Positions 20,041 to 32,446 of a stretch of DNA of 64,000 nucleotides are shown one piece after another. The translations under genes were made by a program, and so were the position numbers. The notes beneath the pieces were generated by a model. It ran no database searches and was not told where the DNA came from. It saw nothing but the letters and a program-made list of their open reading frames with translations. Source of the DNA: Aliiroseovarius sp. S1123 (GTDB lineage: Bacteria; Pseudomonadota; Alphaproteobacteria; Rhodobacterales; Rhodobacteraceae); contig NZ_JALKBE010000002.1 in NCBI RefSeq assembly GCF_023015885.1, positions 372,001 to 436,000 on the forward strand, written 5' to 3'. Every line of letters starts with the position of its first letter. Position 1 is the stretch's first letter.

Positions 20041-20207
20041 CTGCTCACCCATCCCAATCAACCAGCGCCAATGCCTACATCGCCTCCACGCTCACTTTTA
20101 TCCAATGTAGACACGGCATCCGCAGCATGCACATAGTTGCGTATGCCCCGTGACACTGTGAATTGATACCCGACGTCTTCGCATTCAGAAGAGCCTCTGC
20201 ACCCGAT

Positions 20208-21899
20208 ATGCCCCTATCCCCCCGTCATCTTGTCGCATTTCTTGCCGCAGCCCTATGCCTCACCCTCTTCCTTGCGGCCGGATTTTCCGATGGTGCAAGC
20301 GCGAGTTTCAACCATACTTGGGCGGCCGAGTTTGGCAGCGCGTTAAGTCTCTCCGACCTCTATCCAAAGCACCTTCCCGGTTTGTGGAGCGGGCTTGGCG
20401 GGTATGATTTCTTCTTTTATGGCCCCTTGCCCTTCTGGGTGGCTGGCGGGCTGATTGCCCCCCTCTGCCCCAGTTGCGCCACGGGGACCGAGATCGTTCT
20501 GACGGCGGCGGCCTTCTGGTTCCTCAGCGGCGCCACGTTTTTCCTGTTCGCACGCCGATATTTCAGCACCAAGATCGCGCTTCTTGGTAGCTTCGTGTAC
20601 CTGTTTCTGCCCTATCACCTATGGATAGATTGGTTCCTACGCCAGGCCATTGGAGAGTTCGCGGGCTTCGCCTTCCTGCCTCTGATTGCATTTGGCGTCG
20701 ATTCTGTTCGATGCCAGCAGAAGTACGGTTGGACGCTGGCGATCGGGGTGGCCGGGCTTGTGCTGTGCCACCTGCCGACAATGCTGCTTGCCGCACATGT
20801 TTTTGCGATCATCCTGATCGCCGTTGCCGTCCAGAAATGGCGCAGAAACCAACCGTTTATACCCTTTCTGGCATCAGTCGTCGGATGGGTGTTCTTGGGC
20901 ATTCTGATGACCAGTTTCTACTGGTTACCGGCGCTTGCCCTGTTGGAAAGCGTCTCGCCTAACATATTGTTTTCAGATTTTTTCGAGGCAAAAAACTGGC
21001 TTTGGGGCACTGCGTCGGGCACACCGCAACCTCAAACATCGATCGTGATGCTCAGCGCATTTCTGGTCACCCTTCCAACTGTGGCGCTGTCCCTCTTCTA
21101 TGCACGCGGCAGTGTACTTGTCTGGATCGCCCCTTCCGTGTTCTTCGTCGTGCTCATGAACTCCAACCTGTCGGAACCCATCTGGAGCACCTGGATCATC
21201 CAGAAGGTTCAATTTCCATGGCGTTTGTTGGTGTTCAGTGACTTCGCAGCGGGCGTCGCGGTTATGGCCCTGCTTGCCGCGCTCGCACCGCACAACCGTA
21301 CCCGAGTGGCAATCATCCTGGTCGTCGCCGCCTTGGCACCACTTTTCAAAGTCATGCTTCCATCGGCGGGCGCAATCATGACTCCCTTTGATGAAACCAG
21401 CTTACCCCGAGGCGCCATTGAATATCTGAGTCCAGAGACAAATGCCGCGCTCGAAAAGAGATACGGCATCGAACTGTCCCACACGAAGCACATTTTGATG
21501 GTCCCCAAGATGTTGGAAATCGTCGTGAATGAGGTTCACAGTCAGCTTCCCGACGGGATTGCAATTGACAGTGCGCCGCGCGCATACACGATCGCAAATG
21601 CACCAGATCAGCAAAATCTGGTGCTTCCGATCCAATATTGGCAGTTCTGGACAGCGCAGCTTGACGACGGCACCCCGCTTCAGCTGACCGCACATCCCGA
21701 TTACGGTGTCATCGAAGTTCTGTCCCCGGACGAGGGGTTCAACGGACAAACAATCCACCTGACCCTGCCCTATCACATCAGCGAAAAGATCGGCTTAATA
21801 CTGGCGCTTTTGTCCGTCGCTGCGTTCGCCTATCTGATCGGCACGGTGCGCAGGCGACAAAAACCGGATCCGGATGACGTCCTACAACACATCCAGTGA
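20208..21899 (+). CDS. GT-C-like polytopic membrane protein (6-pyruvoyl-tetrahydropterin-synthase-related membrane family)
   Basis: A 563-residue inner membrane protein with about ten hydrophobic helices in the first 370 residues, a soluble C-terminal domain of about 130 residues and a last helix near 530-550. The first external loop (FNHTWAAEFGSALSLSDLYP, then GLGGYDFFFYGPLPFW) and the FLPYHLWIDWFLRQAIGEF segment resemble GT-C fold lipid-linked-sugar glycosyltransferases and the large membrane family misnamed after pyruvoyl-tetrahydropterin synthase. Activity is unknown. The start at 20208 is uncertain; a TTG 45 bases upstream is in frame. Its 3' end overlaps the convergent Lrp gene by 18 bases. 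Confidence 0.75.
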   Translation: MPLSPRHLVAFLAAALCLTLFLAAGFSDGASASFNHTWAAEFGSALSLSDLYPKHLPGLWSGLGGYDFFFYGPLPFWVAGGLIAPLCPSCATGTEIVLTAAAFWFLSGATFFLFARRYFSTKIALLGSFVYLFLPYHLWIDWFLRQAIGEFAGFAFLPLIAFGVDSVRCQQKYGWTLAIGVAGLVLCHLPTMLLAAHVFAIILIAVAVQKWRRNQPFIPFLASVVGWVFLGILMTSFYWLPALALLESVSPNILFSDFFEAKNWLWGTASGTPQPQTSIVMLSAFLVTLPTVALSLFYARGSVLVWIAPSVFFVVLMNSNLSEPIWSTWIIQKVQFPWRLLVFSDFAAGVAVMALLAALAPHNRTRVAIILVVAALAPLFKVMLPSAGAIMTPFDETSLPRGAIEYLSPETNAALEKRYGIELSHTKHILMVPKMLEIVVNEVHSQLPDGIAIDSAPRAYTIANAPDQQNLVLPIQYWQFWTAQLDDGTPLQLTAHPDYGVIEVLSPDEGFNGQTIHLTLPYHISEKIGLILALLSVAAFAYLIGTVRRRQKPDPDDVLQHIQ

Positions 21900-22331
21900 G
21901 CGCTTCACCCGGTCCATGACAATTGACGTTTTGAACCGGCTGATGTTGGACGCGTCAAAGAAGTGTTCTTGCGTGAAAGCCTCGTATTCTTTGATATCGC
22001 GCACGGACAGGATCAGCAGGAAATCGGCCTCGCCCGTGGTGTAATAGCATTGTTGCACAGACGGCGCTGTGCGCATCTTCTTCTTGAACTCCTCAAGCTG
22101 CTGGCGATTCTCGCGCTCGAGTATGACCTCGACGATGACGGTCAAATCCCGGTCAAGTTTCTTTGGTGAAAGCACAGCGATTTCGCGCTCGATCACACCG
22201 GTTTCTTTCAGCTTTTTCAAACGCTTCTGAACGGCCGCGGGGGACAGGCCGACGCGTTCGCTAAGGGTTTCGGCGGTCAGGCGAGCATTCTCTTGCACCA
22301 GCCGCAATATGTGCAGGTCTTTATCATCCAT
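21882..22331 (-). CDS. Lrp/AsnC-family transcriptional regulator
   Basis: A 149-residue regulator with an N-terminal helix-turn-helix (MDDKDLHILRLVQENARLTA...SERVGLSPAAVQKRLKKL) and a C-terminal RAM/AsnC effector domain (about 65-145). It is divergent from the M20-DpaL-M24-racemase operon with a 122-base shared promoter region, so it probably controls that operon by sensing a pathway amino acid. Related Lrp proteins (AsnC/DoeX) accompany ectoine catabolism operons. Start chosen at the family MDDKD. Confidence 0.92.
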   Translation of the reverse strand: MDDKDLHILRLVQENARLTAETLSERVGLSPAAVQKRLKKLKETGVIEREIAVLSPKKLDRDLTVIVEVILERENRQQLEEFKKKMRTAPSVQQCYYTTGEADFLLILSVRDIKEYEAFTQEHFFDASNISRFKTSIVMDRVKRSLDVL

Positions 22332-22453
22332 GATCTGAAAATCGTCGCAAATGACTTTTCTTGCAATCAATTTCAGATAGCTTTTGAAAAACTAAGACGT
22401 ACACAGTCCTTACTGACCCGCTAGGATACCCTCAAGAAGATCAGGAGGGTGGC

Positions 22454-23587
22454 GTGGATCACTTGACCGAAATGCGGCGACAGTTTCACCGCCGACCAGA
22501 ATTGGGCTTTCAGGAAGACAACACAAAGGCGCTGGTGGCAGACCACCTGCGTGGCCTCGGGATCGAGGTGCACGAAGGCGTGGGGGTCGTAGGTGTTTTA
22601 CGCAAGGGCAATGGTAACCGTGCCATTGGTTTGCGCGCGGATATGGATGCGCTTCCGATTGTGGAAAAATCCACCCATGACTACCCGTCCGAGACCCCCG
22701 GCGTGATGCATGCCTGTGGCCATGACGGGCACATGACGATGTTGCTGGGGGCGGCCGAAATGCTGGCGAAGGATGCCGCGTTCGATGGCACAGTTGTCTT
22801 CCTGTTCCAACCGAACGAAGAGCACGGGCTGGGCGCGCAAGCGATGATTGACGAGGGCGTGCTGACGCGGTTCCCCGTGGACGAGGTCTATGCCATTCAC
22901 AACCTGCCGGGTGCACCATTGGGTCAGGTCTCGACCCGGCCCGGTCTGATTTGCAGCAGCGAAAGCCTGTTCGAGATCACCGTGCATGGTCGGGGCGGCC
23001 ATGCTTCGATGCCTCAGGTCGGCGTGGATGCGATCACTGTCGGGGCCGAGTTGGTCACGGCCCTGCAAACCATTGTCGCCCGCAAGTTGGCTCCGGGCGC
23101 GGGTGTTGTGGTCTCAGTGACCGAGTTCGTGACCGACGGGCAGCGCAACGTGTTGCCGGGACAAGCCGTGCTGAAAGGCGACGTGCGCGCCCGCGCGCCC
23201 GAGGATCGTCTGGCCGTCGAGCGCTTCATGCGTCAGATCACCGATGGCGTCACCGCAGCGCATGGGGTGACGGCCACGGTTCAGTTCAAAACCGAGTTCA
23301 TCGAGACCATTAATGCCGATGGCCCGACTCAGGCCGTTTGTCGTGCGGCCTCTGCTGCCGGGTGCGACGTCATCCCTGACCGCCAACCGATGAGCTTTTC
23401 CGAGGATTTCGCCCATTTCGCCGCGGCGGCACCCGGCTGCTTCCTGCTTTTGGGCAACGGCACCGAGGGCGCACATGGCAAACCCCTGCATGCCTCCGAC
23501 TTTGACTTCAACGACGCGCTTTTGCCCATCGGGGCCGCGTTCTGGACCCACCTTGTGCAGGACCGCCTGCCCCTTCGAAAGGACTGA
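22454..23587 (+). CDS. M20-family amidohydrolase (aminoacylase-like)
   Basis: A 377-residue zinc amidohydrolase of the M20D aminoacylase/hippurate hydrolase group, removing an acyl or similar group from an amino nitrogen. Metal and catalytic residues are visible in GLRADMDALPI, MHACGHDGHMTMLLG and FLFQPNEEHGLGA, with SFSEDFAHF near the C-terminus and the lid domain around 180-290. Translation begins at GTG 22454, five bases after AGGAGG. It is first in a four-gene operon with a diaminopropionate ammonia-lyase starting 2 bases later, so an N-acyl diamino acid is a reasonable substrate guess. Confidence 0.93.
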   Translation: MDHLTEMRRQFHRRPELGFQEDNTKALVADHLRGLGIEVHEGVGVVGVLRKGNGNRAIGLRADMDALPIVEKSTHDYPSETPGVMHACGHDGHMTMLLGAAEMLAKDAAFDGTVVFLFQPNEEHGLGAQAMIDEGVLTRFPVDEVYAIHNLPGAPLGQVSTRPGLICSSESLFEITVHGRGGHASMPQVGVDAITVGAELVTALQTIVARKLAPGAGVVVSVTEFVTDGQRNVLPGQAVLKGDVRARAPEDRLAVERFMRQITDGVTAAHGVTATVQFKTEFIETINADGPTQAVCRAASAAGCDVIPDRQPMSFSEDFAHFAAAAPGCFLLLGNGTEGAHGKPLHASDFDFNDALLPIGAAFWTHLVQDRLPLRKD

Positions 23588-23589
23588 TC

Positions 23590-24783
23590 ATGAAGGATAT
23601 TTTCAGCACGGCGCCCCTGCACCACACGGCAGGATCCCCTGCACCGTCAAAGGCTGCGTTCACCGTTCTGTCCGAACAGGATTTCGCAAACGCCTGCGCC
23701 GAGATCATGGCATGGGACGGGTATGAAGCCACGCCGCTGGTGTCTCTGGCCGGGTTGGCCGAGCAGCTGGGCATTGGGCGGATCGACTATAAACACGAAG
23801 GCCCGCGGTTTGGGCTGGGCAGCTTCAAGGCGCTTGGTGGATCCTACGCCGCACTTCGCGTGTTGCAGCGCGAGTTGAGCGCACAATTGGGCCGAGACGT
23901 GAGCTTGGAAGAGATCCGCAACGGCAACCACCGTGACGCCTGCGCCAAGATAACGCTGGTGTCGGCCACCGATGGCAATCACGGCAGGTCTTTGGCGTGG
24001 GGCTGTCAACGGTTCGGCGCGCCTTGCCGCATCTATATCCACGCCGAGGTCAGCGAAGGCCGCGCTGAGGCGATGCGCGACTTGGGCGCGGACGTGATCC
24101 GCATCGACGGTGACTATGACGCCTCCGTCGTTCTGGCGAAAACCGAAGCCGAGGAAAACGGCTGGTTCGTCGTGTCTGATACCTCGTGGGAGGGCTATAC
24201 CGAGCCGCCACGCGACGTGATGGCCGGCTATGGCGTCATGACCCGCGAGATCTGTGAGACACTGGAAGACGCGCCAACCCATGTCTTCCTGCAGGGCGGC
24301 GTTGGCGGCCTTGCGGCGTCGGTCGCGGCAGGCTTGCGGCAGTTCTACAAGGATGCCTCGCCCCGCGTGGTCATCGTGGAACCTGATCTGGCGGCCTGCT
24401 TGTTTGACAGTGCAAAAGCGGGCAAGGCCACCACATTTGCCATCGCCGAAGAAACCATCATGGCAGGGCTGTCCTGCGGTGAGCCTTCGGAAATGGCGTG
24501 GGAAATCCTGTCGGAAGAGGCCTCGGATTTCCTAACCATTCCCGACAGCATCGTCGCGCCCACCGTGCGCCTATTGGCCAACGGGGAAACCGGGGATGAG
24601 GTCGTCGAGGCCGGAGAAAGCGCTGTGGCCGGGCTGGCCGCCGTGATCGCGGCCCGTCAGGATTCGGAGCTGTCCAACACACTGGGGCTGGACGCAACCT
24701 CGCGCGTCTTACTGATCGGATCGGAAGGCGTGACCGATCCGGCGATCTTTGACGCGATCATGGCCGGGGCAGACCATGTCTAA
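23590..24783 (+). CDS. dpaL: Diaminopropionate ammonia-lyase
   Basis: A 397-residue fold-type II PLP enzyme. The PLP lysine lies in the family motif FGLGSFKALGGSYA near residue 80. SATDGNHGRSLAW binds the cofactor phosphate/substrate side, and LQGGVGGLAASVA is the glycine loop. Length and motifs fit DpaL/YgeX, which converts 2,3-diaminopropionate to pyruvate and two ammonia, rather than the shorter EutB of hydroxyectoine pathways. It starts 2 bases after the M20 gene and overlaps the M24 gene by 8 bases. Confidence 0.9.
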   Translation: MKDIFSTAPLHHTAGSPAPSKAAFTVLSEQDFANACAEIMAWDGYEATPLVSLAGLAEQLGIGRIDYKHEGPRFGLGSFKALGGSYAALRVLQRELSAQLGRDVSLEEIRNGNHRDACAKITLVSATDGNHGRSLAWGCQRFGAPCRIYIHAEVSEGRAEAMRDLGADVIRIDGDYDASVVLAKTEAEENGWFVVSDTSWEGYTEPPRDVMAGYGVMTREICETLEDAPTHVFLQGGVGGLAASVAAGLRQFYKDASPRVVIVEPDLAACLFDSAKAGKATTFAIAEETIMAGLSCGEPSEMAWEILSEEASDFLTIPDSIVAPTVRLLANGETGDEVVEAGESAVAGLAAVIAARQDSELSNTLGLDATSRVLLIGSEGVTDPAIFDAIMAGADHV

Positions 24784-25951
24784 GGCACAACACGCCCCCG
24801 CGCGGGGCTTTCCCGAGTCCGAGTTCGCCACCCGCACCGCAAAGGCGCAGGCCCTGATGGCGCAGCAGGGTCTGGACGGGATGCTTCTGCTGACCGAACC
24901 CGAGGTCCGCTATTTCAGCGGCTTTCACACGCTGTTCTGGCAAAGCCCCACGCGGCCGTGGTTCCTGTTTGTCCCGGCCCAGGGCAAGCCCATCGCGATC
25001 ATCCCTGAAATCGGCGCGGAACTGATGCGCCAAACATGGATCGACGACATTCGGACATGGAGCGCCCCGGCCCCCACTGATGACGGGATCAGCCTGCTGA
25101 CCGAGCTTCTGTCTCCGCTGTCCGCATCCGGTGGTCGCTTGGGGATGCTGAAAGGGCATGAAACCAACCTACGCATGCCCTTGGGCGACTATGAACGGCT
25201 TATGGGTGCGCTGCCCGGCCTTCAGATCGACGACGCAACCGGACTGGTCCGTGCTCTGCGCATGGTCAAATCCGAGGCCGAGATCGAAAAGCTGTCCCAT
25301 ATCTGCGCCATCGGCTCGCGCACATTCGACGCGGTGCCGAAAATCGCACATGAAGGGATGCCCTTCGAAGACCTGTTCCGTCAGTTCCGGCGCGAGGCGC
25401 TATCGCAAGGGGCCGACGATGTGCCCTATTTGGTCGGCGGCGCGGATCAGGGAGGCTATCACGACGTGATCTCGCCGCCCTCACCCCGCCCCCTGCAGCG
25501 CGGGGACGTCTTCATGCTGGACACCGGTGCGACTTGGGACGGGTATTACTGTGATTTCGACCGCAACTGGGCCGTGGGTCAGGCCGATGATGCTTCGCAC
25601 CGTGCCTATGACGTGCTGTGGCGCGCGACCGAGGCCGGGATCGCCGCCGCCCGTCCCGGCACCACCTGCCGCGAGCTGTTCCACGCCATGCAATCCGTGA
25701 TCGCCGAACTGGATGATCAGGGCGGAGATGTCGGGCGGCTGGGGCACGGGCTGGGGATGCAGCTGACCGAATGGCCGTCAAATGCCGCGTTTGACAACAC
25801 GGTGATTGAAGAAAACATGGTGCTGACGCTGGAGCCCTCGCTTTCCTATGGCGATGGGCGCATCATGGTGCACGAGGAAAACATCGTCGTGCGTGCAGAT
25901 GGGGCGCAGCTTTTGACCAACCGCGCGGCACCCGAATTGCCGGTGATCTGA
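24776..25951 (+). CDS. M24-family hydrolase (Xaa-Pro peptidase / ectoine-hydrolase-like)
   Basis: A 391-residue creatinase/aminopeptidase-P-fold protein: N-terminal creatinase-like domain (about 1-155) and C-terminal pita-bread domain. All five metal-ligand positions appear present: D in MLDTGAT, D in YCDFDRNW, H in GHGLGMQLTEWP, E in LTLEPSL and E in VHEENIVV. Length and fold are shared by Xaa-Pro peptidases and by DoeA/EutD ectoine hydrolase. The context (deacylase, diamino acid lyase, Lrp regulator, racemase-like enzyme) favours a small-molecule C-N hydrolase. The ATG at 24776 overlaps dpaL by 8 bases. Confidence 0.88.
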   Translation: MSKAQHAPARGFPESEFATRTAKAQALMAQQGLDGMLLLTEPEVRYFSGFHTLFWQSPTRPWFLFVPAQGKPIAIIPEIGAELMRQTWIDDIRTWSAPAPTDDGISLLTELLSPLSASGGRLGMLKGHETNLRMPLGDYERLMGALPGLQIDDATGLVRALRMVKSEAEIEKLSHICAIGSRTFDAVPKIAHEGMPFEDLFRQFRREALSQGADDVPYLVGGADQGGYHDVISPPSPRPLQRGDVFMLDTGATWDGYYCDFDRNWAVGQADDASHRAYDVLWRATEAGIAAARPGTTCRELFHAMQSVIAELDDQGGDVGRLGHGLGMQLTEWPSNAAFDNTVIEENMVLTLEPSLSYGDGRIMVHEENIVVRADGAQLLTNRAAPELPVI

Positions 25952-25958
25952 GGGCCAC

Positions 25959-26729
25959 ATGCTGAAGCTTGAGTTTGACACGGACGGAGGGATCGGGACG
26001 CGCGCCAATCTGGGCATGATCGTTCTGGAAACCGACGAAACGCTGGAAAGCGAATTTGCCCGGATGGCGGATTTTGAGGGCGTCGCGCGCTATCACAGCC
26101 GCATCCCGATGGTCAGCGAAATTCGCGCCGACACGCTGGCGCGAATGCTGGATGACATGCCGGCTTCGGCGAAATTATTCCCATCCTCGCTGAAGTTTGA
26201 CGTGATTGGTTATGGCTGCACCTCGGCCTCGACCGTGATCGGGTCAGACAATGTCGCGTCCGCCATTCAGACGATCCGCCCCGAGGCGAAAGTGACCGAT
26301 CCGCTGGCGGCCCTTATCGCGGCAAGCACGTCCCTAGGCGCGAAAAACCTTGGCTTCATAACGCCTTACATCCCTGAAGTCTCACTGAAGATGCGCGAAA
26401 AGCTCGAGGATGCGGGGTTTCACATCACCGCCGGAGGATCGTTCGAGGAAGGCGACGATCGCGTGGTCGCACGGATCACCGAGGGCGCGATCCAAAAGGC
26501 CGCGCATCAGGTCGCATCGGCCGCGCCTGCTGACGCCCCTTGCGACGCCTTGGTGATTTCCTGCACCAATCTGCGTTGCCTGAACATCATACCGCAGCTA
26601 GAGGCCGAACTGGGCATCCCGGTTCTGTCCAGCAACACAGCCTTGGTCTGGCACATGCTGCGTCTGGCCGGAATCGAGGATGAGATGCCCGAAATCTGCC
26701 GTCTGTTCGGCACGCAGCTTTCGACCTGA
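25959..26729 (+). CDS. Asp/Glu racemase / maleate isomerase-like protein (EutA-like)
   Basis: A 256-residue protein of the Asp/Glu/hydantoin racemase superfamily, closest in pattern to maleate cis-trans isomerase, arylmalonate decarboxylase and EutA. Both catalytic cysteines are present: C87 in GYGCTSAS and C202 in ISCTNLRC. Such enzymes invert a stereocentre, isomerise a double bond or decarboxylate. It is the last gene of the operon, 7 bases after the M24 gene; 120 bases then separate it from tamA. EutA-like proteins occur in hydroxyectoine catabolism clusters. Confidence 0.87.
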   Translation: MLKLEFDTDGGIGTRANLGMIVLETDETLESEFARMADFEGVARYHSRIPMVSEIRADTLARMLDDMPASAKLFPSSLKFDVIGYGCTSASTVIGSDNVASAIQTIRPEAKVTDPLAALIAASTSLGAKNLGFITPYIPEVSLKMREKLEDAGFHITAGGSFEEGDDRVVARITEGAIQKAAHQVASAAPADAPCDALVISCTNLRCLNIIPQLEAELGIPVLSSNTALVWHMLRLAGIEDEMPEICRLFGTQLST

Positions 26730-26849
26730 CGCCCCTACCGCGTGCACGGCGGAAAGCTGCCGACCCCGTGTTTCCGGTGGTGCTTCGCCCAGCGACGGGC
26801 TAGGCTTTGGGCCATTGGGGATATTGTGCTGCTCACAAGGGAACTGGGT

Positions 26850-28658
26850 TTGAGAACGTTGACTTTCGCGCCGCTGTGGCGACGGATCTGCCTTCCCGTC
26901 GCGCTGACGATTTTGGGGCAATCTGCATTGGCGCTCGACACGGTCCAGATCACGGTTCTTGGCGGCGATAGTGACCTGGAACGGGCCCTCAAGGCCGCCT
27001 CTCTTGTGCAAACTGCTAAAAACGATGGCGAGGTCGACCCCCGCGACGTGATGGCCGCAGCGCTGGCAGAATATGGCCGCCTGACGGAAGTGCTCTATGC
27101 CAACGGCTATTATGGCGGCGTCATTCGCATCCGCGTCGACGGGCGCGAGGCCGGGCGCATCCCCGTGTTCAACTTGCCCTCTCAGATCAGCACAATCGAG
27201 ATCACAGTGGATCCCGGCGCCCCCTTCACCTTTGGCACGGCACGGGTGGCCCCCGTGCCCCCCGGCACCAAGCTACCAGACGGGTTTCGCACCGGCGCGC
27301 TTGCAGAAAGCACGCAAATCCAAGCGGCTGCAGATACCGCCCATCTGGCGTGGCGGCAAGCAGGCCACCCCAAGGCCGATCTGACCCGTCAGAGCATCAC
27401 CGCAGACCATACGGACCACACCCTGTCGGCGGATTTGCAATTCTCGCCCGGACCGAAAGCCCGGTTTGGCCGCATGACACAGACGACAGACAGTACTGTG
27501 CGGGCCGAACGCGTTGCCCGAATTGCGGGATTTCCGACCGGTCAAGCCTACTCGCCCGAGGCACTAGACAAGGTTGCCAACCGCCTGCGCCGTACCGGTG
27601 CGTTTTCCTCGGTTTCACTGACCGAAGCAAAGACGCTCACCCCCGATGACACGCTGGACGTAGGACTTGCCTTAGCCGATGAAAAGCCGCGCCGCTTTGG
27701 CGTTGGGGCGGAACTGTCGTCGCTCGAGGGCATCGGTCTGTCTGCCTATTGGATGCATCGGAACCTATTTGGCGGGGCGGAACGTTTCCGCGTCGAGGGC
27801 GAGATCACAGGAATTGGCGGTCAGCAAGGCGGTGTCGACTATCGCCTTGGTGCGCGACTGGAACAGCCCGCAACCTTTGGTCCCGACACAACCGCATTCG
27901 GCTATGCTAAAGCCGCCTATGAGGACGAGCCCGCCTATATATCGCGCAGCATCGATCTGGGCGCAGGCATGACGCGGATCTTTTCAGACACCCTGTCCGG
28001 CGAACTTGGCGTGGGGCTGCATTATTCAGACATCACGGACGTGTTTGGGGATCGGGACTTTTTCCAGCTGACCCTGCCAATTGGTCTGACGTGGGACCGA
28101 CGCAATGACCTGCTGGACGCCACATCAGGTACATTCCTGCGCGCCGAGGTGACACCGTTCCTATCCCTCAATGGCGGCGACAGCGGGGCGCGTGCATTCG
28201 CAGATGCCCGTGCCTATCGCGGGTTGGGTGCAGGTGACCGCGTCGTGCTGGCGGGCCGTGTGCAGGCAGGCACGGTCTATTCCGACGATGTGCAAGACAT
28301 CCCCCCGGGGTATCTGTTCTTCTCGGGCGGCGGGAACTCGGTTCGCGGTCAGCCTTATCAATCCTTAGGCATTCCCGAGGGCATCGGCGGTCTGCGCGGC
28401 GGTCGGTCCTATCTGGCCGTATCGACCGAGCTGCGCGCGACGATCACCGACACAATTGGCCTTGTGGCCTTTGCAGATGCCGGCCACGTCAGCGATGACA
28501 GCCTGTTTGGTGGCGACGGCGCTTGGCACGCGGGCGCGGGGCTTGGGGTGCGCTATAAAACGCCCATCGGGCCGTTGCGTCTGGATGTGGCCGGACCGAT
28601 TTCCGGAGATACCGGCGACGGTGTACAAATCTACCTTGGTATTGGGCAGGCGTTCTGA
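26850..28658 (+). CDS. tamA: Translocation and assembly module outer membrane protein TamA
   Basis: Omp85-family outer membrane protein (602 aa from this start) that works with TamB in outer membrane biogenesis. After a signal peptide (LWRRICLPVALTILGQSALA) come POTRA-like domains (about 35-270) and a C-terminal 16-strand barrel with the Omp85 motif SVRGQPYQSLG and the terminal aromatic residue (GIGQAF). TTG at 26850 after AAGGGA is preferred because it gives a normal signal peptide; an in-frame GTG at 26826 after GGGGA is possible. Its stop shares one base with the tamB start. Confidence 0.92.
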   Translation: MRTLTFAPLWRRICLPVALTILGQSALALDTVQITVLGGDSDLERALKAASLVQTAKNDGEVDPRDVMAAALAEYGRLTEVLYANGYYGGVIRIRVDGREAGRIPVFNLPSQISTIEITVDPGAPFTFGTARVAPVPPGTKLPDGFRTGALAESTQIQAAADTAHLAWRQAGHPKADLTRQSITADHTDHTLSADLQFSPGPKARFGRMTQTTDSTVRAERVARIAGFPTGQAYSPEALDKVANRLRRTGAFSSVSLTEAKTLTPDDTLDVGLALADEKPRRFGVGAELSSLEGIGLSAYWMHRNLFGGAERFRVEGEITGIGGQQGGVDYRLGARLEQPATFGPDTTAFGYAKAAYEDEPAYISRSIDLGAGMTRIFSDTLSGELGVGLHYSDITDVFGDRDFFQLTLPIGLTWDRRNDLLDATSGTFLRAEVTPFLSLNGGDSGARAFADARAYRGLGAGDRVVLAGRVQAGTVYSDDVQDIPPGYLFFSGGGNSVRGQPYQSLGIPEGIGGLRGGRSYLAVSTELRATITDTIGLVAFADAGHVSDDSLFGGDGAWHAGAGLGVRYKTPIGPLRLDVAGPISGDTGDGVQIYLGIGQAF

Positions 28659-31600
28659 TGTGGATCCATCGTTTCCTTCTGACCCTGATTGCCGCGCTTT
28701 CTCTGCCCCTGGCGGCCCTATCACAAAACGCTGGCCCTGCGTCTGCGGATGACCGCGGCTATCTTCAGGCCTTTTTGGAAGACAACCTGTCCGACACCGG
28801 GCGCGAGATTAAAATCATCGGCTTTCAAGGCGCCTTCAGCTCTCAGGCCACCGTCGACGAGATTACCGTCGCAGATGGCGAGGGAATTTGGCTGTCCTTA
28901 CGCGGTCTTACCCTGACATGGACACGCAGCGCGCTGTTGACCGGGAACGTAAAGATCGACGCACTTGAGGCCGAGGAGATCACGCTCTCACGTCGCCCGA
29001 TCCCGGATCCCTCGCTGCCCGCGCCTGAAGCGACGGGCTTTGCCCTGCCCGAGTTACCAGTGTCGCTGAACATCGGCACAATCCGTGCGGCGCGGGTCCA
29101 CCTTGGCGAGGGTGTGATCGGAGAAGCCGCCGAAATCGCGCTTCAGGGATCAGCCGCGTTGGAAGCGGGTGACGGGAATGCCGATTTGACCATCAACCGG
29201 CTGGACGGCCCAAAAGGCGCGTTAGAGCTTAAAGGCAGCTACAACAACACCGATCGTATCCTGTCGCTGTTTCTGTCGCTTCAGGAAAACACGGGCGGGA
29301 TGGCGGCCACCCTGCTGGGCATTCCCAACCAGCCGGCCCTTGACCTGACGCTTGACGGGACCGGCCCCCTGTCGGATTTCGAAGCACAGATCGCATTGGC
29401 AACCGAAGGCGAACCACGGCTAACTGGCCATGTCCGCCTGACAGAAAGCGCAGTGGCCTCGGCGCAGCCTGACACCCCTACATTCGACCGCCAGTATGCG
29501 TTGGATCTGTCCGGAGACATCTCGCCGCTGCTCCATCCCGATTTCAAAGGCTTTTTCGGGGATGCCGTTGATGTCACCACACGCGCGTCGCAGCTTTCTG
29601 ATGGGTCGATCCGCGTTGACACGCTGTCAGTGCAATCCAATTCTCTGGACCTGAAGGGGGATCTGATGCTGGCGCCGGGAGGATGGCCGGAACGCATCGC
29701 CCTCAACGGTCGCATTGCGTCTCCTGATGGTGCTCCGGTCCACCTGCCCCTGTCCGGTCCGCGCACGATGGTGTCGTCCGCACATCTGACCATCGCCTAT
29801 GATGCCGCGACCGGAGAGCTCTGGACTGCACGGGCCGCTCTTGCTGACCTCACGCAGGGCGACTTGATCATTGACGCCGCCACGTTGTCCGGATCGGGAC
29901 AGCTGCGTGCGGGTGCCGAAGGGGCGGCCCCCCTATTCGATGGCGCAGTGCGGTTCGACGTAAAAAATATCCAGCCGACACGCCCAGAGTTCGCCGCCGC
30001 AATCGGCACGGATTTGACCGGTGCATTGCAGTTCAACTGGCAAAGCGACGATGTCTTGGCGATTTCGAACCTGAAACTGGCAGGCGACGACTATGACCTG
30101 ACGGGTGACCTGACCCTGACTGACTTTGCCGACGGTGTCATCGCCCGCAGCAATGGCTTGCGCCTAGACGCACGCGATCTGTCGCAGTTCTCGGGACTTG
30201 CAGCTACGCCCCTGTTGGGTCGCGTGACGCTTGATCTGACAGGCGAAAGCAACCTTCTGGGCGGTGCGTTTGATTTGCGCCTAAACGGGCGTGGTGCGGG
30301 TTTGGGCGTGAACCAACCACAACTGGACGCGGTCATCGGAGGGAAAAGCATTCTGGCGCTGCACGCCGTTCGCGACATGACTGGTACGCGGATCAAGGCG
30401 TTGGATCTGGAAACCGAGAAGGCGCAGATTTCGGCCTCGGCGGATCTGAAAACCAAAGAATCCGCTGCGGAACTCTCGCTGAACCTGCCCGACGCCAGCG
30501 CAGTTGATCCGAAGCTCAACGGCCCTGCCCGCCTGACCGCATCCTTGCAGCAAACCGGTACAGATTGGCGGGTTGAAACGGATTTCACCGGTCCAGGAGG
30601 TGCATCCCTGCAGGGCGCGGCCCTTGTGCGCCTTGTGGATGGTGCAGCGGATCAGATAGATGGCACATTGCGCGGTGATATCACGCAGCTTGCCCCCTAT
30701 AGCGGCTTGGCGCAGCGCGCCCTGTCGGGCAGTTTGAACGTCGACACGGAAGGCCAGATGCGCCCCGAAACCGGTAACTTCACCCTGAAACTGGACGCAA
30801 AAGCAGCGTCGCTAGGGATCGGGATTGCACAGGTTGATGCGCTTCTGCGCGGGGACAGCACCTTGTCAATTGCGGCCCACCGCGAAGGCGACGCCCCCAT
30901 TCTTCTTGACCGCCTGACCCTGCGCAGCGATGCCGTGTCCGTGACCGCCGAAGGCGCACCTTCGGACAACGGAACACGCGTGACGTTCCAGTCACGCCTT
31001 GCTGACCTTGGCCTGATCGCGGATGGCATCTTGGGTCCTGCCGAAGCGCAAGGCAGCGCGGAACTGACGGATGAAACCTGGCGTGTCGCTATGAACGCAA
31101 CCGGCCCAGCTGGCGTGAACGCACGTGTGGACGGAACGGTCAGCGCCGATGGCACGCAGGCCAATCTGGCGCTATCGGGCACGGCACCTCTTGCGCTTGC
31201 CAACCAGATGATCCGCCCCCGTCTGGCCACGGGCACTGCAAATTATGACCTAGCGCTGCAGGGACCACTGGATCTTGCCTCGGTGTCGGGCACTATGACC
31301 ACGCAAAACGCGCGCATTGCCTTGCCGCGCCTGAAGCAAGCTATCGACATTAACAGCGGACGCGTCACCTTGGCTGGCGGGGTAGCAACGCTGGACATCC
31401 AAAGCTCGGTAGCCGCCGGAGGGCGAATTGCAGCTTCCGGCACGATCGGGATGGCCGCTCCTATGCAGGCGGATCTGTCGATCCAGCTGGATCAGCTGCG
31501 CCTGACAGACGGCGCGCTGTTTGAGACCATCGCGAATGGCAGTGCAGATTTGCGCGGGCCTTTACAAGGCGGGGCCACCCTGCGCGCTGTGATCGATCTG

Positions 31601-32446
31601 GGGCGCACGGAACTGCGCGTGCCCGAGGCCGCCCCCGGCACCCTGCCCGTCATGGAAGGCTTGAGACATGTGGGCGAACCGGCTGCCGTGCGTCAAACGC
31701 GGCAGTTCGCTGGTCTGATCGTGGAGCCGAGCACCTCTGCCACGGGGCGCCCCTATCCGCTAGACATCACGCTGAACGCGCCGGGGCAGGTCTTTGTGCG
31801 CGGGCGGGGTCTGGACGCCGAGCTGGGCGGCTCCCTGCGCGTGACCGGCACCAGTGCGGACGTTATTCCCCAAGGCGAATTCAGCTTGATCCGCGGGCGT
31901 CTGGACATGTTGGGCAAGCGTCTGACCCTGACCGAGGGCGACGTGAGCCTGCAAGGCGACTTCAACGCCTATCTGCGGTTCCTTGCAGAAGCCCGCGCCG
32001 AAGACACCGATATCAAAATCGGCGTTACCGGCCCGGTCTCGGAACCCGAGATCACCTTTACCTCGTCCCCCGAATTGCCCGAAGACGAGGTGCTGGCCCG
32101 CCTTCTGTTTGGTAAAGACATCACCCAGATCTCGGCCATTCAGGCGCTGCGACTGGCAGCCGCTGTGCGCACGCTGGCCGGTAAAGGCGGCGAAGGCGTG
32201 TTGGGACGTTTGCGTGGCAGTTTCGCACTGGATGATCTGGACGTGACCACAGACGAAACGGGCGCTGCCTCGGTCCGGGCCGGTAAATACATCTCGGAAA
32301 ACATCTATACGGACGTCACGGTCGGCGCGGATGGCACCGCCGAGGTTAATCTGAACCTGACTTTGTCCCCATCCCTGACCGCACGTGGATCCTTGGGATC
32401 AGATGGCGAAACAGGTTTGGGCGTCTACTTCGAACGCGATTACTGA
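28658..32446 (+). CDS. tamB: Translocation and assembly module inner membrane protein TamB
   Basis: A 1262-residue AsmA-like protein that spans the periplasm as a hydrophobic beta groove thought to carry phospholipids to the outer membrane. It has an N-terminal membrane anchor (FLLTLIAALSLPLAALS), a very long repetitive beta region, and a C-terminal DUF490/TamB domain (about 930-1262) with SLIRGRLDMLGKRLTL, SPELPEDEVLARLLFGK and terminal GLGVYFERDY. Start codon and tamA stop overlap as TGATG, so the partners are co-translated. Confidence 0.96.
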   Translation: MWIHRFLLTLIAALSLPLAALSQNAGPASADDRGYLQAFLEDNLSDTGREIKIIGFQGAFSSQATVDEITVADGEGIWLSLRGLTLTWTRSALLTGNVKIDALEAEEITLSRRPIPDPSLPAPEATGFALPELPVSLNIGTIRAARVHLGEGVIGEAAEIALQGSAALEAGDGNADLTINRLDGPKGALELKGSYNNTDRILSLFLSLQENTGGMAATLLGIPNQPALDLTLDGTGPLSDFEAQIALATEGEPRLTGHVRLTESAVASAQPDTPTFDRQYALDLSGDISPLLHPDFKGFFGDAVDVTTRASQLSDGSIRVDTLSVQSNSLDLKGDLMLAPGGWPERIALNGRIASPDGAPVHLPLSGPRTMVSSAHLTIAYDAATGELWTARAALADLTQGDLIIDAATLSGSGQLRAGAEGAAPLFDGAVRFDVKNIQPTRPEFAAAIGTDLTGALQFNWQSDDVLAISNLKLAGDDYDLTGDLTLTDFADGVIARSNGLRLDARDLSQFSGLAATPLLGRVTLDLTGESNLLGGAFDLRLNGRGAGLGVNQPQLDAVIGGKSILALHAVRDMTGTRIKALDLETEKAQISASADLKTKESAAELSLNLPDASAVDPKLNGPARLTASLQQTGTDWRVETDFTGPGGASLQGAALVRLVDGAADQIDGTLRGDITQLAPYSGLAQRALSGSLNVDTEGQMRPETGNFTLKLDAKAASLGIGIAQVDALLRGDSTLSIAAHREGDAPILLDRLTLRSDAVSVTAEGAPSDNGTRVTFQSRLADLGLIADGILGPAEAQGSAELTDETWRVAMNATGPAGVNARVDGTVSADGTQANLALSGTAPLALANQMIRPRLATGTANYDLALQGPLDLASVSGTMTTQNARIALPRLKQAIDINSGRVTLAGGVATLDIQSSVAAGGRIAASGTIGMAAPMQADLSIQLDQLRLTDGALFETIANGSADLRGPLQGGATLRAVIDLGRTELRVPEAAPGTLPVMEGLRHVGEPAAVRQTRQFAGLIVEPSTSATGRPYPLDITLNAPGQVFVRGRGLDAELGGSLRVTGTSADVIPQGEFSLIRGRLDMLGKRLTLTEGDVSLQGDFNAYLRFLAEARAEDTDIKIGVTGPVSEPEITFTSSPELPEDEVLARLLFGKDITQISAIQALRLAAAVRTLAGKGGEGVLGRLRGSFALDDLDVTTDETGAASVRAGKYISENIYTDVTVGADGTAEVNLNLTLSPSLTARGSLGSDGETGLGVYFERDY

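Follow-up and report, generated by a model that had tools for sequence, protein, structure and literature searches.

In a 64,000-nucleotide stretch of the genome of Aliiroseovarius sp. S1123 (assembly GCF_023015885.1, contig NZ_JALKBE010000002.1, positions 372,001 to 436,000 of the forward strand; hereafter, the window), a gene for a regulator of the Lrp/AsnC family faces four tightly packed genes encoding an M20 amidohydrolase, a diaminopropionate ammonia-lyase (DpaL), an M24-family metallohydrolase, and a EutA-like protein of the Asp/Glu racemase superfamily. We tentatively interpret this operon, with a probability somewhat short of one half (about 0.46), as an accessory catabolic module under Lrp control that belongs to the ectoine-type solute repertoire and would act on an ectoine-derived or ectoine-like N-acyl diamino acid. 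This interpretation draws on the gene content of the operon and its conservation, on the active-site residues of the encoded enzymes, on the separate clade formed by the M24 proteins, and on the linkage, in some relatives, to genes for EutD-type proteins and ectoine-type transporters.

The five open reading frames (ORFs) are found in the ORF list of the window as the first-pass annotation of this DNA had described them, with gaps of 2, −8, and 7 bases between the M20 and DpaL, DpaL and M24, and M24 and EutA-like genes, respectively. The family names given there for all five products agree with our scans of Pfam and NCBIfam, the latter scored in bits against the cut-off of each family. On the forward strand, the M20 gene occupies positions 22454..23587 (PF01546/PF07687), the DpaL gene 23590..24783 (PF00291), the M24 gene 24776..25951 (PF00557/PF01321), and the EutA-like gene 25959..26729 (PF17645). 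The M24 ORF extends from TTG 24749, although ATG 24776 is the likely start; the residue numbers of this protein refer to the 400-codon ORF from 24749.

The unit is conserved in Rhodobacterales, Stappiaceae, rhizobia, and Vibrionaceae. We compared 149 loci encoding an M24 protein of this family, namely, the best 80 of 289 relatives from a scan of genome contigs, 59 other genomic stretches, and 10 plasmid loci. These loci are not independent of each other, and the neighboring genes were labeled with a simple ORF picker and BLAST searches against labeled references at loose thresholds, with some genes mis-called, so the following counts are approximate. Within seven genes of the M24 gene, DpaL-type genes were found in 112 loci, EutA-type genes in 111, M20 genes in 75, Lrp genes in 61, and cystathionine-beta-lyase-like genes in 5; after thinning to M24 proteins less than 65% identical, the first three were found in 19, 22, and 9 of 39 loci, respectively. 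The gene immediately before M24 is DpaL in 83 of the 112 loci and the gene immediately after it is EutA in 100 of the 111, which argues against a chance arrangement and bears out the initial proposal that these catabolic enzyme families form a real and conserved operon. Other neighboring families recur in at most 13 of the 80 close loci, mostly within a genus, and the unit therefore appears to move as a block; transporter genes recur across genera. It is plasmid-borne in Aliiroseovarius crassostreae and Phaeobacter, and a Photobacterium plasmid carries DpaL, Lrp, EutA, M20, DctPQM, and M24 in a single block. Among the best 80 of 289, the five nearest relatives of the M24 protein, 84 to 93% identical, are from Aliiroseovarius and have the same flanking genes.

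Judging from its residues and phylogenetic placement, the M24 protein, which belongs to a clade of its own, is not an ectoine hydrolase or a Xaa-Pro peptidase and is predicted to be a metal-dependent nonpeptidase hydrolase. It passed no NCBIfam cut-off, scoring 53.1 of 613 bits against EutD (TIGR02993) and 95 of 630 against PepQ. The five metal ligands Asp, Asp, His, Glu, and Glu (DDHEE; D258, D269, H333, E362, and E376) are all present, and those aligned with PepP D260, D271, H354, and E406 are conserved in 149 of 149 relatives, with the ligand aligned with E383 retained in 148, the sole deviant reading DDHAE. Two aligned EutD proteins, one of them from the same genome, read E, P, Y, M, and T at these positions; the window protein is not an EutD because it kept the metal ligands that the aligned EutD proteins lost. 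Besides the metal ligands, roles are assigned in PepP to His243, His350, His361, Arg404, and Tyr387 (available parts of PMC5774706 and PMC5723419), which correspond to D, G, T, V, and S in the window protein. None of the five is retained in any of the 149 relatives, H243 being replaced by D, S, Q, N, E, or R, H350 by G, H361 by T (in 147), R404 by V (in 141), and Y387 by a mixture of residues; E. coli PepQ and YpdF retain all five.

The phylogeny of the M24 proteins is consistent with these residue patterns. All 200 bootstrap trees had a branch that separated the family from EutD (15 ungrouped rows were left out of this count), and the family was also set apart from E. coli PepQ, PepP, and YpdF as well as from same-genus M24 proteins with the peptidase residues (L230-L232). 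The branch holding the family together with L229, a same-genus protein with the same residues, had a support of 89/91, short of the mark for strong support of the tool used. One row, L225, is a long-branch and probably wrong-frame ORF on which no conclusion depends. Nearly invariant residues of the family include W64, P67, R69, P70, W71, R330, T340, S344, and H375, each present in 144 or more of the 149 proteins, and some of these may bind a small carboxylate substrate, as in creatinase. In a few genomes (G244, G110, G290, G268, G185, and G039), the match to the M24 family is interrupted by one or two in-frame stops and is possibly a decaying copy.

These results bear directly on the possibility that the operon serves the ordinary salvage of dipeptides or N-acyl amino acids, with a Xaa-Pro peptidase and an aminoacylase brought together by chance. 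The best PDB relatives of the M24 protein by sequence are indeed PepE and prolidases, plasmid records label its relatives as Xaa-Pro peptidase family proteins, and the M24 family membership and the five metal ligands are shared with PepP, PepQ, YpdF, and PepE. However, the other five catalytic or substrate residues of PepP are all absent in the window protein and replaced in every relative, the clade is separate, and the gene linkage is conserved, so this explanation, already disfavored, appears highly improbable. A position among Xaa-Pro peptidases with no conserved linkage to the other genes was one of the outcomes that the first-pass annotation had named as telling against its proposal; instead, the tree and the operon comparison revealed a distinct clade and a conserved linkage.

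A separate ectoine cluster is present in the same genome, on contig C11, and consists of EutB, EutC, EutD, an Atf-kind aminotransferase, an aldehyde dehydrogenase, an Lrp regulator, and an M20 protein of the acetylornithine deacetylase (ArgE) type. Its EutC scored above NF006141 and below TIGR02992, its EutB above NF005680 and below TIGR02991, and its EutD, at 589 of 613 bits, just below the cut-off. No EutA was found in this cluster, and the genome yielded a single EutA-family gene, the one in the window operon. The possibility that the window operon is the only ectoine pathway of the strain was thus ruled out; the operon, which does not combine EutD with a EutE-type deacetylase, is therefore not the ectoine pathway itself.

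The connection to ectoine metabolism emerges from the relatives. The DpaL-M24-EutA triad is clustered with a EutD-type gene in 10 loci (L147, L148, L234-L239, L111, and L240), and in L162, where no DpaL was found, M24 and EutA are clustered with such a gene; the M24 proteins are 51 to 60% identical to that of the window in L147, L148, and L234-L239, 71% in L111 and L240, and 54% in L162. Among these 11 EutD-linked loci, which were partly picked because EutD was near, 9 encode an ArgE- or AstE-type deacetylase, 6 encode Atf, and 3 (L237-L239) encode EutB and EutC. In a count without such selection, read by eye, M24 and EutD genes were located within 8 kb of each other in at least 8 of 118 genomes having both, the chance expectation being about 0.7 within 10 kb for 130 genomes. 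Roughly every second genus sampled from the family has a relative of this M24 (146 of 295), and EutD was detected in 118 of the 146 genera with M24 versus 65 of the 149 without it (Fisher p = 4.7e-11; E up to 1e-120 for EutD and up to 1e-90 for M24). For window-type M24 proteins (at least 65% identity), EutD was found in 21 of 27 (p = 0.0014).

Some of these loci could also be taken to represent a branch specific for 5-hydroxyectoine, in which EutD and a deacetylase would yield 3-hydroxy-diaminobutyrate, EutA would invert it, and the DpaL-type enzyme would dehydrate it in place of or beside EutB/EutC. According to the available parts of PMC8739950, EutABC are needed for the use of 5-hydroxyectoine by reactions that are not exactly known. 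EutA-type genes are present in 111 of the 149 loci; L235 and L236 carry EutD, ArgE, Atf, DpaL2, M24, and EutA without EutB/EutC; L147 and L148 combine DpaL2, M24, EutA, and EutD with an AstE-type deacetylase; and the ectoine cluster of our strain has EutB and EutC but no EutA. However, EutB, EutC, and the triad occur together in L237-L239, and no negative association with EutC, scored on at most seven candidates per genome, was seen among EutD carriers, a result that led us to reject the triad as a replacement of EutBC. Given that this branch would also leave the M24 protein without a clear job, we consider it quite unlikely.

Transporter genes provide a second line of evidence for the ectoine connection. 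Ruegeria, Labrenzia, and Roseibium have a DpaL-like gene that diverges from M20-M24-EutA and is followed by a DctPQM set (DctP of this kind was found in 9 of the 80 close loci), and in Photobacterium, DctPQM is inside the operon. Two binding proteins of tripartite ATP-independent periplasmic (TRAP) transporters from sister operons match 3fxb, 3gyy, and 2vpn, which we take to be the ectoine binders UehA and TeaA, at 1e-57 to 1e-65; the next solved relative is 4pfi (1e-52 to 1e-54), and in the search with one of the two proteins, the rest scored 1e-32 or weaker. Directly before M24, Bosea and Pseudorhizobium have genes that the records name EhuABCD, and other relatives have BCCT, amino acid ATP-binding cassette (ABC), or PotA-type ABC sets, with the binding protein of the latter being closest to a spermidine/putrescine-binding protein. 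Contig C20 of the same genome (L244:5720-12084) encodes a PotA/substrate-binding protein/permease ABC set, the three main genes of which are 64 to 84% identical to a sister-operon set, adjoining a gene for an M24-like protein whose metal site is changed. Next to the window operon itself, where the family scans covered the two preceding ORFs, no transporter, EutC, transaminase, Ssd, or Atf gene was seen. The absence of transporter genes reported by the first-pass annotation stands for the window operon, but TRAP or ABC transporters are encoded in some of the sister operons.

The M20 protein, of the aminoacylase type, passed TIGR01891 but no equivalog; its best-scoring family was DoeB2 (NF038260), at 315.4 of 550 bits and hence below the cut-off, and it is not a YgeY (26.3 of 321 bits). 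Residues C88, H90, E122, E123, H149, and H346, which presumably form the metal site, are conserved in 69 to 75 of 75 relatives. An M20 deacylase had been regarded as a departure from ectoine operons, a claim that we could not sustain: the strain's own ectoine cluster has an M20 protein, so such a deacylase is no mark of a different pathway, and the DoeB2 model matched, albeit below its cut-off. The EutA-like protein has TIGR02990 (EutA) as its best NCBIfam family, at 176.7 bits, below the cut-off of 318. Its two conserved cysteines, C87 and C202, are kept in 111 of 111 EutA-type relatives, and we assume that they play the role that such cysteines have in the EutA/racemase superfamily.

The predicted assignment of the lyase as a DpaL is supported by its NF006058 score (diaminopropionate ammonia-lyase; 473.8 bits versus a cut-off of 276) and by the alignment of K80, D128, and D197 with Lys77, Asp120, and Asp189 of E. 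coli YgeX, the last of which is presumably an active-site residue as well. Lys77 and Asp120 are named as potential catalytic residues of the E. coli enzyme in the available parts of PMC4000059. The protein also matches structure 4d9g at 2.9e-67; its score against TIGR03528 (326.7 bits) is below the cut-off of 532.25. The residue aligned with Asp120 is Ala in 43 of the 112 DpaL-type partners, with the M24-EutA neighborhood unchanged; thus, the lyase partner varies, and specificity for diaminopropionate may not be a constant of the module. A tie between the presence of EutA and the loss of this Asp was considered and not seen, EutA being found in 35 of 43 loci with Asp versus 29 of 33 with Ala after thinning at 85%.

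The properties of the lyase bear on the route put forward in the first-pass annotation, by which a cyclic or N-acyl (or, as we would add, N-carbamoyl) 2,3-diaminopropionate would be opened by M24, deacylated by M20, racemized by EutA, and split by DpaL into pyruvate and ammonia. We liken this route to the last steps of the reductive urate pathway of E. coli. In that bacterium, YgeY (M20) and YgeX (DpaL) turn albizziin into pyruvate (available parts of PMC12507026), and the window shares with this system an M20 hydrolase beside a diaminopropionate ammonia-lyase, the latter with the YgeX-aligned residues. Furthermore, four of five DpaL relatives with 46 to 53% identity (L218-L221 of L218-L222) adjoin a gene for a carbamoylase-like Zn hydrolase, one of these (L218) together with a HyuA relative and a PotA-type ABC set. 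Because of these parallels, the route keeps some plausibility, and it would agree with the arrangement in G241 and G100, where M20, DpaL, and EutA adjoin each other without an intervening M24. However, the window M20 is not a YgeY, M24 and EutA-like genes are additional to the E. coli set, and no HyuA, YgeW, or SsnA gene was seen adjoining the window operon. Moreover, with Ala in place of Asp120 in so many partners from the same neighborhood, and with the ectoine-type transporters and the EutD linkage left unexplained, we judge this route to be unlikely. The idea that M24 is dispensable in G241 and G100 was ruled out, as both genomes carry a family M24 elsewhere. Of the five DpaL relatives with 46 to 53% identity, those in L219-L222 are accompanied by TRAP genes.

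The variable neighbors of the module raise the alternative of a pathway for other beta-substituted or N-methylated alanines, such as beta-N-methylamino-alanine or plant-type N-acyl diaminopropionates, with M24 and EutA performing a peeling step. Some relatives adjoin genes for a DAO-GcvT oxidase, SoxA/SoxB, or Rieske proteins; on an Aminobacter plasmid (L121), EutA-M24-M20 is followed by a cystathionine beta-lyase, an amino acid ABC transporter is also present, and no DpaL was seen nearby; and three rhizobial plasmids (L123, L125, and L208) have nitrile hydratase genes near an Lrp-DpaL-M24-ABC-Zn hydrolase cluster. Such neighbors are a minority, 4 of the 80 close loci having a DAO-GcvT relative and 2 having SoxA, and none of them was seen beside the window operon, which makes this pathway very unlikely. 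As a separate observation, L109 (17500-19526) and L080 (17560-19606) contain a second EutA-family gene paired with an M24 gene, adjoining SoxA, SoxB, and a Rieske oxygenase, that is, in an N-methyl amino acid setting; the M24 protein of this pair in L109 has lost all five metal ligands.

The regulator gene lies on the reverse strand at 21882..22331 (PF01037 and PF13404). Its ORF was listed as 21882-22370, reaching TTG 22370, but ATG 22331 is the likely start, preferred because the relatives start there. Just upstream of this ATG, between the divergent genes, is an imperfect inverted repeat at 22333..22378 (no strand), with arms 22333-22350 and 22361-22378 that pair at 14 of 18 positions. A similar sequence was aligned in other genera, and a loose pattern from that alignment matched 11 of the 61 Lrp-bearing loci. 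We consider this repeat to be a putative Lrp operator.

Taken together, these observations are best accommodated by an accessory module of the ectoine-type solute repertoire. In such a module, M24 would cleave an N-acylated and possibly cyclic diamino acid that either derives from ectoine or resembles it; M20 would then strip the acyl group; the EutA-like protein would correct the stereochemistry; and DpaL would remove the beta substituent by pyridoxal phosphate (PLP)-dependent alpha,beta-elimination, releasing a 2-oxo acid and ammonia. The operon would be controlled by Lrp and, in this strain, would work beside the separate ectoine cluster on the other contig. The final elimination is proposed because of the DpaL family and the deacylation because of the M20 family; the other steps, their order, and the substrate we infer. 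A broader possibility, to our mind somewhat unlikely, is that the M24 clade represents a new kind of metal-dependent small-molecule hydrolase which, along with the EutA-like epimerase and the DpaL-type lyase, degrades an unrecognized ectoine-like compatible solute, for example, an N-acyl derivative or cyclic amidine of a short diamino acid.

Several findings weigh against the assignment to the ectoine repertoire. The window operon has no ectoine gene next to it; the UehA-like protein has no close counterpart in this genome, the best match being 29% identical; and with the metal site kept, it is unlikely that the M24 protein performs the chemistry of EutD. Of 8 linked EutD-type genes, only 3 pass TIGR02993, the other 5 scoring 575 to 607 of 613 bits, and the linkage mostly involves M24 proteins at 51 to 60% identity: L111 is the single locus of the 80 closest with EutD inside the fetched stretch (at most 10 kb on each side). 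The co-occurrence test ignores relatedness and lifestyle, and 6 of the 27 genomes with a window-type M24 lack EutD at the threshold used. Nor does the module track EutC among EutD carriers, with EutC in 34 of 118 with M24 versus 19 of 65 without (p = 1.0), although EutC was scored on at most 7 candidates per genome and some may be missed. In the family-wide sample, DpaL (E up to 1e-60) was found in only 38 of 146 M24-bearing genomes versus 6 of 149 lacking M24, so that a close DpaL is often missing where M24 is present; partners of the DpaL2 type may fall below this threshold. Finally, sarcosine oxidase, Rieske, or other transporter genes adjoin the module in some relatives, and its partners therefore differ.

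Ectoine operons such as ehuABCD-eutABCDE of Sinorhizobium meliloti (gene orders in the available parts of PMC5924519) likewise encode an M24 protein, a deacylase, a fold-type II PLP enzyme, a EutA-family protein, and an Lrp/AsnC regulator, and the likeness is extended in some sister operons by UehA/TeaA-like TRAP genes, Ehu-annotated ABC genes, or a EutD-type gene with Atf, EutB, and EutC. By contrast, the window M24 retains the metal site, which EutD lost, and falls into a different clade, the PLP enzyme is DpaL rather than EutB, EutA and M20 are below the family cut-offs, and no transporter, EutC, Ssd, or Atf gene was seen beside the operon. The likeness to ectoine operons noted at the outset is thus strengthened by the linkage in relatives and limited by an M24 protein that is not of the EutD ring-hydrolase kind. 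The available parts of PMC13188858 describe clusters with an extra eutD homolog close to eutA and eutB (Bacillaceae) or with two eutD homologs (Thermodesulfobacteriota). Compared by description only, these clusters from other phyla resemble the window operon in that EutA and a PLP dehydratase stand next to a second M24 protein; those parts mention neither DpaL nor a separate M24 clade, and the clusters may be a glimpse of the same module. No description of a DpaL-M24-EutA operon and no paper linking diaminopropionate ammonia-lyase with eutD were found among the matches listed in our literature search, the coverage of which mostly does not extend to subscription papers.

The ORF preceding the operon (20163-21899; 578 amino acids) matched no Pfam or NCBIfam family at E 0.001; two Aliiroseovarius loci (L037 and L068) have a 68% relative at the equivalent place, and none was seen in L036, L038, L039, and L040. 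The ORF before it encodes a metallo-beta-lactamase-fold protein (Pfam). The two long ORFs that follow the operon (26742-32446) are probably TamA/TamB-like.

Ectoines are nitrogen-rich osmolytes and food for many marine bacteria, and the reactions of EutABC are still open (available parts of PMC8739950). With its ties to ectoine genes and transporters in relatives, the conserved DpaL-M24-EutA triad may represent a missing branch of ectoine metabolism or the degradation of a related, unseen solute. In addition, the analysis separates a group of M24 proteins with the metal site kept and the peptidase residues lost, which is now recorded as Xaa-Pro peptidase.

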